From positions 1-44,487 of the forward strand of contig NZ_PZKE01000018.1 of assembly GCF_003034965.1 (NCBI RefSeq): 44,487 bases of DNA, written 5' to 3'. A program made the position numbers and the translations under genes. The notes under the pieces were generated by a model that was given only the letters and a program-made list of their open reading frames with translations, was not told the origin of the DNA and searched no databases. Within the stretch, counting starts at the first letter, position 1; every line of letters starts with the position of its first letter. Source of the DNA: Fuscovulum blasticum DSM 2131 (lineage in GTDB: Bacteria; Pseudomonadota; Alphaproteobacteria; Rhodobacterales; Rhodobacteraceae). This document shows positions 5,862-9,967 of this stretch, piece after piece.

Positions 5862-6485
5862 ATGCCTGTTTCCCGTCGTTTTGTTCTTGTCGCCGGTGTT
5901 GCCGCGGCTGCCCTGACCGCTGGTTGCGTTGGTGGCACGTTCCACACCGCCTATGCCGCGCCGATCCCCGCCGATGTTTCCCGTCAGTGGAAGCTGGCCG
6001 GTGTGCGCGTGAACGTTCCCCAATCGCTGAAGGTCAGCGAAGCCCACACCTATCTTCCGGCTGCCGACATTGTCTGGCGCGAAGATCCGCTGGGCGACCG
6101 TCATGCGCAAGTCGCGGCCCTGCTGAAGAACGCGGTCACCCGCGGCGCGTCGGGCCTGCGCGGCAAGCGTGGCGTCTATCTCGACATCGTTGTCAGCCGG
6201 TTCCACGCCCTGACCTTTGAAGCCGAACAGCGCTTCCAGAATGCCGGCGTGCACAACATCCACTTCACCGCCAGCGTCGTTGACGCCCGCACCGGCGAAG
6301 TTCTGGTTGCGCCGACCGAGATCGAAGCCTCGCTCCCGGCCCTGTCGGGTGATCAGATGAAGGCGGCCCGTGCCCGTGGGGAAACCCAGCGGTCGCAGAT
6401 CACCGCCCATGTGGCGACCACCATCGCCGGCTGGCTGAGCCTGGCCGCCGATCCGCGCAACAGCTTCAGCCGCGCTGGCGACTGA
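5862..6485 (+). CDS. Probable lipoprotein (DUF6778-like)
   Basis: The product has 207 residues. ATG 5862 has the strong site AAGGAGG seven bases upstream; the open frame before it is ignored. A short basic start (SRR), a hydrophobic stretch and ALTAGC place a probable lipidated cysteine at residue 22, although the residue at -3 is Thr rather than the usual Leu. The rest is a soluble alpha/beta domain without transmembrane segments. I associate it with a small family seen in Rhodobacteraceae (DUF6778) of unknown function, but that is recollection rather than a search result. It is monocistronic: a strong GNRA-loop terminator follows at 6505. Confidence 0.75.
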   Translation: MPVSRRFVLVAGVAAAALTAGCVGGTFHTAYAAPIPADVSRQWKLAGVRVNVPQSLKVSEAHTYLPAADIVWREDPLGDRHAQVAALLKNAVTRGASGLRGKRGVYLDIVVSRFHALTFEAEQRFQNAGVHNIHFTASVVDARTGEVLVAPTEIEASLPALSGDQMKAARARGETQRSQITAHVATTIAGWLSLAADPRNSFSRAGD

Positions 6486-6504
6486 TCGCGCCTTCTTTTG
6501 CGGC

Positions 6505-6534
6505 AAGGGGCGGCAGAGCGATCTGCCGCCCTTT
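6505..6534 (+). terminator. Terminator of the lipoprotein gene
   Basis: GGGCGGCAGA at 6508-6517 pairs with TCTGCCGCCC at 6522-6531 around the tetraloop GCGA. Flanking AAG and TTT extend the stem to 13 pairs (one G-T). TTTGT follows. It separates the lipoprotein gene from the cysS promoter. Confidence 0.75.
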
Positions 6535-6561
6535 GTCATGTGCGGTGCGGATCTTTTCCTG

Positions 6562-6590
6562 TTGGCGACGCCGGAAAAGGGCGCTAACTT
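6562..6590 (+). promoter_or_regulatory. Sigma70-type promoter for the cysS leader
   Basis: TTGGCG (6562-6567) and TAACTT (6585-6590) are separated by exactly 17 bases and sit just after the preceding terminator. The predicted start of transcription, about seven bases past the -10, falls on the ATG of the leader peptide at 6597, so the transcript would be leaderless or nearly so. Confidence 0.6.
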
Positions 6591-6596
6591 CCCCGC

Positions 6597-6641
6597 ATGA
6601 CGACGTTGCGCAACATCCGCATCTGCTGCATTACCCGCTGA
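6597..6641 (+). CDS. Candidate cysteine-rich leader peptide upstream of cysS
   Basis: This is a 14-residue reading frame, MTTLRNIRICCITR, ending in TGA at 6639-6641, about 90 bases before cysS. Two adjacent Cys codons (TGC TGC, 6624-6629) near its end are what an attenuation leader sensing charged tRNA-Cys would need. The start codon coincides with the predicted transcription start and has no Shine-Dalgarno, as in leaderless leader peptides. Competing base pairings follow (6634-6725). Cysteine is rare in proteins, so a Cys-Cys pair immediately ahead of the cysteinyl-tRNA synthetase gene is suggestive. There is no direct proof of translation. Confidence 0.55.
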   Translation: MTTLRNIRICCITR

Positions 6642-6725
6642 CTTCGGTCGCGCGGGCGCTTCGTCATTCCCCCGGATGAAAAGCCGTCCCCGCGCGAGGG
6701 TGAAGCCTGCCTGCGCCTTGGGACG
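6634..6725 (+). promoter_or_regulatory. Candidate attenuator structures between leader peptide and cysS
   Basis: TCGCGCGGG (6648-6656) pairs with CCCGCGCGA (6689-6697), a nine-base stem. Two other pairings compete with it. CCCGC at the end of the leader reading frame (6634-6638) pairs with GCGGG (6652-6656). CGTCCC (6685-6690) pairs with GGGACG (6720-6725), which is the only purine-rich sequence in front of the cysS start. A ribosome stalled on the Cys codons or resting at the stop codon would choose between them. No T-run is present, so control of translation is more likely than termination. The pairings are seen; the mechanism is inferred. Confidence 0.4.
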
Positions 6726-6731
6726 ACTGAC

Positions 6732-8333
6732 ATGACCACCATCCGCCTGACCAATTCCAAGACCCGCCGGAAGGAGGAGTTCGTTCCTCTCGATCCGGCC
6801 AATGTGCGGATGTATGTCTGCGGCCCCACCGTCTATGACCGGGCGCATCTGGGCAATGCCCGGCCGGTGGTGGTGTTCGACACGCTGTACCGGCTGCTCC
6901 GCCATGTCTACGGCGCCGATCATGTGACCTATGTCCGCAACTTCACCGACGTGGATGACAAGATCAACGCCGAGGCGCAGCGCAGGAAGGCGCTTGGCCG
7001 GCCGGAGACGCTGGAAGAGCTGATCCGCGAGCGGACCGAGGAAACCATCGCCTGGTATCATGCCGACATGGATGCGCTTGGCGCGCTGCGGCCCGGCCAC
7101 GAACCGCGGGCGACCGAATTCATCGGCGCGATGATTGCCATGATCGAGGGGCTGATCGGGCGGGGGCACGCCTATGCGGTGGACGGGCATGTCCTGTTCC
7201 GCGTGCGGTCCTACAAGGACTATGGCGCGCTGTCGGGGCGCAGCGTCGATGACATGATCGCCGGCGCGCGGGTCGAGGTCGCGCCCTACAAGGAAGACCC
7301 GATGGATTTCGTGCTGTGGAAGCCGTCGGATGCCGACCTGCCGGGATGGGACAGCCCCTGGGGCCGGGGCCGCCCCGGCTGGCACATCGAATGCTCGGCC
7401 ATGTCATATGAATTGCTGGGCGACAGTTTCGACATCCACGGCGGCGGCCTGGATCTGCAATTCCCCCACCACGAGAACGAGATTGCCCAAAGCTGCTGCG
7501 CCCATCCGCAGGGCCAGTTCGCCCGCTATTGGCTGCACAACGAGATGCTGCAGGTCGAGGGCAAGAAGATGTCCAAGTCGCTGGGCAATTTCTTCACCGT
7601 GCGCGATCTGCTGAACAAGGGGATTCCGGGCGAGGTGATCCGGTTTGTCCTGCTGAGCACGCATTACCGCAAGCCGATGGACTGGCGACGTGGAACTGTG
7701 ACTGCAGCGCGAAAGGAGTTGCGGAACTGGTGGTTTGCGACGGAGGAAGTCAAACTGGCAGCAGGCGCGGATGATACCTTTGTTGATGCATTGGCAGATG
7801 ATCTGAATACTTCGGACGCGATTAACCGCCTTCGTGAGCTGTATAAGGCGAAAGAGTTTTCCAAGCTCAGGGCGTCTGCAAACTTGCTTGGCCTTCTCTT
7901 GCCCGGCACAGACCCGTGGTTCCGTCCTAAAGTAGATGATCTCGTGAGAGGCAAAGTCGAGAGTGTTTTTGCTCTTCGACAGCGTGTTAGGGCGGAGAAG
8001 GACTATGTGACCTCTGACTTTCTTCGTGCGGTTCTAGAAGTCGCTGGGGTTACTGTGGCTGACGGAAAAAATCCAACCTGGATTGCAAGCTTTGCTGGGC
8101 AGGAGCGCGGCTGGAAAAAATTGGCTGAGTTGAGTGAGGACGAAAGCGAGCGGTTCGTGAACTTCGACAGCTTAGCATCAATTGCGCGATCCCGTCACGT
8201 TTGGCTTTCTTCCGAGATTGATAGCAATAACAATCTGACGGATGGCCATGTCGTGATTGTCGACGAGGTGCCTGAGACCATTGATGTCGACTTGCTTTAC
8301 GAATTGGTTCGAGTCGCGGGGTATGATGTATGA
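6732..8333 (+). CDS. cysS: Cysteinyl-tRNA synthetase with an aberrant, low-GC C-terminal third
   Basis: The 533-residue class I synthetase charges tRNA-Cys. The catalytic part is standard: zinc-ligand Cys30 in [10 protein letters not shown], the HIGH-type motif HLGN at 39-42, and KMSKS at 279-283. Up to residue 318 (HYRKPMDW) it looks like any Rhodobacteraceae CysS. From residue 319 the DNA drops to roughly half GC and uses codons rare in the neighbours (TTA, AGA, AAT, AAA). The tail still aligns in concept with CysS ([13 protein letters not shown], then [14 protein letters not shown]), but it ends in about 75 extra residues without familiar motifs. The usual length in related bacteria is about 460. 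The stop overlaps the cimA start (ATGA), so the two are cotranscribed. Confidence 0.95.
7686..8330 (+). other. Low-GC tract replacing the 3' part of cysS
   Basis: Composition changes abruptly after codon 318 of cysS and returns to high GC at the first codons of cimA. For example, bases 7801-7860 contain 27 G/C of 60, while flanking genes are well over 60%. Codons such as TTA, AGA, AAT and AAA cluster here. The tract stays in frame and ends precisely at the cysS stop. It looks like a horizontally acquired 3' gene segment. I see no integrase, direct repeat or IS end around it. Confidence 0.75.
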
Positions 8334-9967
8334 CCCCCGAACGCCTTTACCTTTTCGACACCACCCTGCGCGATGGCCAGCAGACGCAGGGCGTGCAGTT
8401 CTCGGCCGCAGAGAAGGCCCAGATCGCCCAGGCGCTTGACCGGCTTGGCGTGGATTACATCGAAGGGGGCTGGCCCGGCGCCAACCCGACCGACAGCGAT
8501 TTCTTCGCCACGGCCCCGCAGACCCGCGCGCGGATGACCGCCTTCGGCATGACCAAGCGCGTGGGCCGGTCTGCCGCCAATGACGATGTGCTGGCCGCCG
8601 TGCTGAACGCCGGCACCGGCACGGTCTGTCTGGTGGGCAAGACCCATACCTTCCACGTCGCCACCGCTCTTGGCGTGACTCTGGACGAGAACCGCGAGGC
8701 CATTGCCGAAACCTTCCGCCATCTGCGCGCCCTGGGCCGCGAGGCGCTGTTCGATGCCGAGCATTTCTTCGATGGCTACAAGGCCGACCCGGCCTATGCG
8801 CTGTCCTGCCTGCGCGCCGCGCTGGACGAGGGTGCCCGCTGGGTCGTGTTGTGCGATACCAATGGCGGCACGCTGCCGGCGGATGTGGGCCGCATCGTGG
8901 CCGAGGTGATTGCCGCCGGCATCCCCGGCGACCGCCTTGGCATCCATTGCCATGACGATACCGGCAATGCGGTGGCCAATTCTCTGGCCGCCGTCAATGC
9001 GGGGTGCCGCCAGATCCAGGGCACGCTGAACGGCCTTGGCGAACGCTGCGGCAACGCGAACCTGACCAGCCTGATCCCGACGCTGCTTCTGAAGGAACCC
9101 TATGCCAGCCGCTTTCAGACCGGCGTCACGCCCGAGGCGCTGAAAGGGCTGCTCAAGACCAGCCGGATGCTGGACGACATCCTGAACCGGGTGCCGCTGC
9201 GCAGCGCGCCCTATATCGGCGCCAGCGCCTTTGCCCACAAGGCCGGGCTCCATGCCAGCGCCATCCTGAAAGACCCCACCACCTATGAACACATCGACCC
9301 GGCGACGGTGGGCAATGCCCGCGTCATTCCGATGTCGAACCAGGCCGGCCAGTCGAACCTGCGCGCCCGCCTTGCCAGCGCCGGGATCGAGGTTGATCCG
9401 AAGGATCCGCGTCTGGCCCGCATCCTTGAGGTGGTGAAGGAGCATGAGGATCAGGGTTATGCCTATGACGGGGCGCAGGCCAGTTTCGAACTGGTCGCCC
9501 GCCGCGAACTGGGCCTGTGCCCGGCGTTCTTTGAGGTCAAGCGCTACCGCGTCACGGTCGAGCGGCGGAAGAACAAGTATGACCGGATGATCTCGCTCTC
9601 CGAAGCGGTGGTGGTGGTCAAGATCGGTGGCCGCAAGGCGATGTCGGTCAGCGACAGCATGGATGGCACGGGGCAGGACCGGGGGCCTGTCAACGCGCTG
9701 GCCAAGGCGCTGGCCAAGGATCTGGGGCCCTATCAGGCCTGTATCGACGACATGAAGCTGGTCGACTTCAAGGTGCGCATCACGCAAGGCGGGACCGAGG
9801 CGGTGACGCGGGTCATCATCGACAGCGAGGACGGGCAGGGGCGGCGCTGGTCCACGGTCGGCGTCAGCCCGAACATCGTGGACGCCAGCTTCGAGGCGCT
9901 GCTGGATGCGATCCAGTGGAAGCTGATCCGCGACATCGGCCAGCCGGTCGAGGCCGTGGCGCCATGA
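8330..9967 (+). CDS. cimA: (R)-citramalate synthase
   Basis: The 545-residue protein belongs to the LeuA-like acyltransferases. It condenses pyruvate with acetyl-CoA to give citramalate, opening a threonine-independent route to isoleucine. The N-terminal TIM barrel starts [19 protein letters not shown], whose DTTLRDG provides the metal-binding Asp and catalytic Arg. [12 protein letters not shown] supplies further metal-binding His residues. A linker and a C-terminal LeuA-type allosteric domain ([12 protein letters not shown] region) follow, which in this family binds isoleucine. The length and the [10 protein letters not shown] motif fit the long CimA type rather than homocitrate or isopropylmalate synthase. 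It overlaps cysS by ATGA at the 5' end and the next gene by ATGA at the 3' end, so all three form an operon. Confidence 0.92.

Follow-up and report, generated by a model that had tools for sequence, protein, structure and literature searches.

The closest described relative of the element studied here is the uORFC-8-2 motif, of which 145 examples are known, exclusively upstream of cysS in Rhodobacterales, and which combines an AUG-started uORF carrying tandem Cys codons with stems and a U run, an arrangement for which ribosome-mediated attenuation has been proposed (PMC8632094). Polycysteine leaderless uORFs of mycobacteria are likewise thought to sense cysteine supply (Canestrari et al. 2020, cited in PMC13236596), and a 2005 account of actinobacterial cys leader peptides reported that no conserved hairpin fit to act as a terminator was found (PMC1262725). 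In Sinorhizobium meliloti, trpL encodes the 14-residue leader peptide peTrpL from a leaderless frame whose translation is seen by Ribo-seq (PMC7298713, PMC10117765).

The window analysed here, a stretch of 44,487 nucleotides from Fuscovulum blasticum DSM 2131, contains a short leader frame followed by a set of pairing segments ahead of the cysS and cimA genes (Table 1). Citramalate is a precursor of isoleucine, which makes CimA a route to this amino acid. Judging from sequence comparison, the element is probably a ribosome-mediated attenuator of cysS-cimA that reads both Cys and Ile. An earlier note on this DNA had named cysS-cimA as the target, an assignment that is supported, but had taken a leader of this kind to be undescribed in Rhodobacteraceae, when it corresponds to the uORFC-8-2 motif as published (PMC8632094). 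In the CysS of the window, of 533 residues, the TIGR00435 match stops at residue 449 and leaves the C-terminal 84 residues (8079-8333) outside it.

Table 1 Features of the leader region and operon in the window
Feature	Position	Strand	Basis or remark
Hairpin ending the upstream gene (6503-6536) and short T-run	6503..6540	+	Fold -29.1 kcal/mol, z -6.0; boundary of the element
Promoter P1 (TTGGCG 6562-6567, spacer 17, TAACTT 6585-6590)	6562..6590	+	Sequence and TA spacing in relatives
Leader frame MTTLRNIRICCITR, 14 codons, probably leaderless	6597..6641	+	Sequence; leader in 12/13 genus genomes
Segment 1 (last codons of the leader with the stop), forming the 5' arm of hairpin 1:2	6634..6642	+	Comparison, folding
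Segment 2, arm shared by both hairpins (3' side of 1:2, 5' side of 2:3)	6647..6656	+	Comparison
Pyrimidine-rich tract 3' of hairpin 1:2, a poor terminator tail	6657..6672	+	Terminator score -31.9
Segment 3, 3' arm of 2:3 (6689-6697); 6685-6690 can pair with 6720-6725	6685..6698	+	Comparison, folding
Segment 4, weak cysS Shine-Dalgarno region (TTGGGA)	6718..6731	+	Sequence; swap test
cysS, cysteine--tRNA ligase	6732..8333	+	TIGR00435
cimA, citramalate synthase, start overlapping the cysS stop	8330..9967	+	TIGR00977

Two sets of cysS loci were compared. Set 1 held 93 loci (80 named loci, the window and 12 relatives from its genus), of which L047 and L077 had too little upstream DNA for a leader to be judged, and its frames were chosen with some weight on Ile. 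For set 2, 120 loci were taken, with no genus of the family represented by more than one genome; they were the best-scoring among the matches listed, and leaders were found there by a rule that required Cys and the hairpin arm and ignored Ile. Six genomes were common to both sets, and 234 distinct cysS loci remained after the removal of repeats, extra searched loci included. A leader was present at 72 of the 93 loci of set 1, with a length of 13-14 codons in 65 of the 72, and at 99 of the 120 loci of set 2, where 95 of those found by the rule were kept for counts and 10 more leaders were added by eye. Within the genus the leader was kept in 12 of 13 genomes, the window included, with Cys-Cys in 11 of the 12 and a single Cys in L084. 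L092 has an apparently decayed leader, in which the ATG and the Cys pair are lost and flanking remnants are still recognisable. The coordinates given in the earlier note are all correct, and the frame in the window has, as stated there, 14 codons with TGC TGC near the end (6624-6629, positions 10 and 11 of 14); it also carries Ile codons at 6615-6617, 6621-6623 and 6630-6632. As a measure of chance, the two strands of the window together contain 284 short frames of 8-25 codons that begin with ATG, and 5 of these have Cys-Cys within the last 8 residues.

A profile built from the alignment was also searched against whole genomes. In the window's own genome it returned the window copy, a match by construction since the window is in the model alignment, and a single further match (E 0.27) that was rejected as a second copy because it lies at chance level. 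Across 289 genomes of the class, searched with filters under which weak matches drop out, it matched in 5, four of them within the family (the window's own included) and one in another family, where the match also lies upstream of cysS. No Rfam 15 family reached its gathering score in the window; of seven sub-threshold matches in 6500-6760, the best three fall on the upstream hairpin. We judge the element to be real because the leader is conserved and the arms co-vary across relatives, which is the outcome of the Rhodobacteraceae comparison that the earlier note had suggested for the tandem Cys codons and the stems.

The leader frame is probably leaderless, its transcript starting on the A of the ATG, as promoter spacing and the lack of a Shine-Dalgarno (SD) sequence suggest. 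In the window, the leader ATG at 6597 is +1 if the TA of the -10 box is placed at -12/-11. Across relatives, TA is found at -14 to -12 from the leader ATG in 63/72 (set 1) and 91/95 (set 2) leaders and TTG at -37 to -35 in 57/72 and 73/95, the two occurring jointly at canonical spacing in 69 of the 95 leaders of set 2, 94 of which also have a pyrimidine directly 5' of the ATG. These distances are the canonical places of the -10 and -35 boxes if +1 is the A of the ATG. An SD-like sequence precedes the leader in 9/72 and 19/95 loci (sets 1 and 2) and cysS in 61/72 and 83/95. The promoter call rests on this comparison; a generic scan of 6400-6800 for sigma-70 and terminator consensus sequences misses P1, returning no promoter and no terminator. 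The promoter TTGGCG-17-TAACTT was correctly located in the earlier note, and the leaderless leader peptide with Cys control codons proposed there is supported, its probable leaderless start by promoter spacing and the absence of an SD; of the strong terminator placed upstream, the hairpin holds, and the T-run after it (TTTGT) is short. One sub-clade of the genus (L088-L091, L093 and L094) has no promoter at leaderless spacing upstream of cysS, and four of its members (L090, L091, L093 and L094) carry an SD-like GAAGGGG ahead of the leader.

The composition of the leaders points to a second amino acid. In set 1, Ile makes up 26.8% and Cys 21.3% of 917 residues, and in the 95 leaders of set 2, chosen without regard to Ile, 361 of 1207 residues (29.9%) are Ile, compared with Ile counts of 66.7 +/- 7.3 in composition shuffles and 198.8 +/- 8.5 in position-wise shuffles. 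The other two frames of the set 2 leaders contain 0.5% Ile, and the CysS and CimA proteins of the window 4.3%. Both Ile codons are in use (ATT 196, ATC 163 in set 2). The earlier reading as a Cys attenuator stands in large part, but it overlooked the Ile codons, which fit cimA.

A Cys-only attenuator, as published for uORFC-8-2, in which the Ile codons would do no more than hold the leader RNA poor in G and free of structure or act through the nascent peptide, is the principal alternative on what is sensed, and we regard it as unlikely. The published motif and its target CysS call for cysteine (PMC8632094), and many of the Ile codons lie at -6 to -9, a poor placement since a ribosome there would mask segment 1 only partly. 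Cys codons moreover persist without an Ile run in two genera that lack an adjacent cimA, so Cys alone can suffice. This account is at odds, however, with an Ile content that is higher than either composition null gives and almost nil in the other frames, with the rarity of other hydrophobic residues (Leu 0.035, Val 0.009 and Phe 0.010 versus 0.268 for Ile in set 1), and with the conservation of Ile three codons before the stop (68 of 72 leaders in set 1 and 89 of 95 in set 2), which is higher than that of Cys at -4 or -5 (59 and 55 of 72; 61 and 66 of 95).

Leader content was also compared with operon content. The cimA gene adjoins cysS at 171 of 179 testable leader-bearing distinct loci, and at least two Ile residues are present in 166 of these 171 cimA-linked leaders versus none of the 8 leaders without adjacent cimA; among cimA-linked leaders found by the rule, the count is 157 of 161. 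Ile is retained in every one of the 14 cimA-linked leaders that have just one Cys, for example MSIMGTIITICIIR, and in one genome of another family (G298) an Ile-plus-Cys leader, MSNAHTIFICPIICR, stands ahead of an adjacent cysS-cimA pair. Five cimA-linked leaders have fewer than two Ile, which speaks against a dual reading. The 8 leaders without adjacent cimA are confined to two genera and are also shorter, and all of them keep Cys (MDWICCLCRA, MEWICCPC and M-x-WRC), with a mean Cys fraction of 0.29, compared with 0.22 where cimA is adjacent. In the genus with the MDWICCLCRA and MEWICCPC leaders, a search for cimA in 3 of 3 genomes returned distant matches only (34-35% identical), presumably LeuA, and in the M-x-WRC genus cimA lies elsewhere in the four genomes searched. 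M-x-WRC leaders occur in 7 of 20 genomes of that genus, the other 13 being without such a leader; these five-codon mini-leaders, M-[I/N/K]-W-R-C-stop (L219-L222 and L225-L227), vary between TGA and TAA as the stop and keep the peptide. An Ile leader ahead of a detached cimA was looked for and not seen in 6 loci.

On the CysS tree, Ile content and cimA adjacency gave two independent pairs, both in the expected direction, a number that leaves the association short of significance. Leader presence and cimA adjacency gave eight supported pairs; in the median pairing, six of these agreed in direction and none ran the other way (median p 0.031, range 0.016-0.22). At the 46 testable loci without a leader, cimA was adjacent in 17 and not in 29.

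Comparison also supports two hairpins and the arm that they share. In the window, 6648-6656 and 6689-6697 are perfect reverse complements over 9 bp (hairpin 2:3), and 6634-6638 pairs with 6652-6656, extended by 6640-6642 with 6647-6649 (hairpin 1:2); the two are mutually exclusive because segment 2 is common to both. The earlier note had described the nine-base stem and its alternative exactly. Folding alone is unexceptional (z -1.85 for 1:2, -1.35 for the 2:3 stretch and -0.65 for the whole leader). In a 60-row alignment, pairing held in 88.0% of the cells of hairpin 1:2, where double changes numbered 20 (7.3 in shuffles), and in 80.8% of those of hairpin 2:3, where they numbered 40 (25.0 in shuffles), one pair of 2:3 being CG in 24 rows and GC in 20. 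Paired cells, double-changed cells and the covariation score exceeded every shuffle for both hairpins, while two of five covariation measures were not clearly above shuffles for either, namely pairs in which both sides had changed (2 versus 1.7 for 1:2 and 3 versus 3.2 for 2:3) and further pair types (10 versus 8.9 and 11 versus 11.2). With 2:3 slid by +2 columns, pairing was still 58.6%, and the RNAalifold consensus contained no more than five 2:3 pairs (-2.1 kcal/mol, covariation term 0.01). When cognate arms were compared with arms swapped within GC bins at 118 loci, z was -10.9 for 1:2 and -6.3 for 2:3. Within the genus (9 loci), 1:2 held (z -2.7), and 2:3, whose arms hardly vary there, was not better than swaps (z +1.95). 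By eye, six loci (L109, L113, L116, L125, L138 and L212) seemingly have an extra hairpin that follows the leader stop and precedes the GGCGGG arm.

The control codons are placed in a way that suits masking of an arm, with Cys-Cys-Ile at -5 to -3 and segment 1 made up of the last two codons and the stop. In the mechanism that we propose, ribosomes would load on the leaderless 5' end, transcription having begun on the A of the ATG. With ample Cys-tRNA and Ile-tRNA, the leader would be completed and released, segment 1 would pair with segment 2, and cysS-cimA expression would be low. If either charged tRNA were scarce, the ribosome would stall with one of the codons -5 to -3 in the A site and mask segment 1, so that segment 2 would be available to segment 3 and the operon would be expressed, and the output would be more CysS, which charges tRNA-Cys, and more CimA for the route to Ile. 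The stalling, the direction of control and the form of the output, whether termination (intrinsic or Rho-dependent) or translation, are what we infer from this arrangement.

Two forms of output were weighed. Termination at hairpin 1:2, either intrinsic (the published form) or brought about by Rho at the pyrimidine-rich stretch, comes close to an even chance in our assessment. The published motif has a U run (PMC8632094), and the 148 relatives outside the genus have a U-rich stretch 3' of segment 2 (T about 40-80% per position), but the U-rich part begins about 4-5 bases past the stem. The terminator score was above zero for 3 of 155 relatives, for none of the 12 genus members and for 1 of 60 shuffles, and the medians of -33.3 and -28.8 are hardly better than the -41.6 of shuffles. 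In the window, neither the consensus scan nor the terminator score indicated a canonical intrinsic terminator. Because transcription reaches segment 3 only past the U-rich tract, 2:3 is no classical antiterminator, and this lateness favours the other form of output, in which 1:2 would free segment 3 to mask the cysS SD (3:4) and a stalled ribosome would lead to 2:3 and an open SD.

This translational output appears rather doubtful on balance. The earlier note had proposed the hiding of the SD by pairing of 6685-6690 with 6720-6725, and these two stretches do pair, with a duplex energy of -13.5 kcal/mol between segment 3 and the SD in the window, where the minimum-energy fold contains 1:2 together with 3:4. 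Pairing of segment 3 is also stronger with the cysS SD region of the same locus than with those swapped in from other loci (z -3.6 in 118 relatives, 1 of 2000; z -2.0 at 9 genus loci), compared with z -0.2 and -0.9 for two coding-region controls. The change in accessibility that the proposal implies did not follow, however. Removing the leader frame in silico raised SD accessibility by a mean of +0.049 at 155 loci, less than the +0.088 obtained with a shuffled frame, and by +0.004 at 12 genus loci; in the window, SD accessibility went from 0.31 to 0.39 and that of the start codon fell from 0.96 to 0.78. The failure of 2:3 in the genus-only swaps also counts against this output. Pairing of the pyrimidine tract with the cysS SD was tried and rejected, as it gave no specific signal (z -1.1 and -1.3). 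With terminator scores near those of shuffles and the change in SD accessibility absent, neither termination nor SD hiding is established, and we lean slightly towards termination, perhaps Rho-dependent.

Relatives outside the genus usually carry a second promoter-like element, TTTCCA-N17-TAAGCC with TG ahead of the second box, in the 2:3 loop between segments 2 and 3 (for example at L027, L050 and L148; the corresponding stretch of the window is 6660-6692). A two-block matrix detected it in 56 of 60 training loci from outside the genus and in 8 of 18 loci without a leader, and in an independent set in 85 of 106 loci with a leader and 3 of 7 without, compared with 0.7% of shuffles; none of 13 genomes of the window's genus had it above the 99% cut. 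In the independent set, the TA of this putative promoter lies a median of 35 bases upstream of cysS. Leader and second element look separable, since the element occurs without a leader and the genus has the stem without the element.

Taken across the family, these patterns are compatible with a leaderless attenuator of two inputs (Cys and/or Ile) whose codon content is tuned by the operon, with Ile codons beside Cys where cimA is adjacent and, where it is not, a mini-leader with Cys and no Ile run, as short as five codons (M-x-W-R-C-stop). The second promoter in the 2:3 loop would then provide a basal supply in most genera examined; its loss in the window's genus would make the operon there dependent on the attenuator. 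We advance this extended reading tentatively and with somewhat less than even confidence. If it is true, a published cysteine attenuator is a two-amino-acid sensor, and the shift of leader content with operon content is a natural experiment in which sensing can be tested by comparing operons. It would also offer a simple reporter test, inhibition of IleRS, for a whole bacterial family, and an uncommon leaderless design that may attenuate without a canonical terminator.

In the thr (Thr and Ile) and ilv (Ile, Val and Leu) attenuators of E. coli, one leader peptide likewise serves several amino acids. There the amino acids share a pathway, whereas Cys (through the synthetase) and Ile (through biosynthesis) are here joined solely by operon membership. 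The mycobacterial and actinobacterial Cys leaders also rely on a Cys-codon leader but, in the accounts consulted, belong to a different phylum and to other target operons (PMC13236596, PMC1262725), and Sinorhizobium trpL is an alphaproteobacterial precedent for a leaderless leader that belongs to the trpE tryptophan attenuator (PMC7298713, PMC10117765). The element of the window resembles uORFC-8-2 in lying directly upstream of cysS and in its AUG-started uORF with tandem conserved Cys codons, and its two mutually exclusive stems may or may not correspond to the two stems given for that motif (PMC8632094). The Cys codons of uORFC-8-2 are usually, not necessarily, at positions 14-15, compared with 10-11 in the window if the numbering is the same, and a U run follows the last stem in all published cases, whereas the window lacks a good one (PMC8632094). 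By title, the literature searched held nothing bearing on an Ile-plus-Cys leader ahead of cysS-cimA; the description of uORFC-8-2 makes no mention of Ile codons, cimA or a second promoter in the portions consulted, and the word "leaderless" is absent from its main text (PMC8632094). The Ile content, the apparently leaderless start, the link to cimA, the arm shared by hairpins 1:2 and 2:3 and the putative second promoter are thus points that go beyond that description as consulted (PMC8632094).
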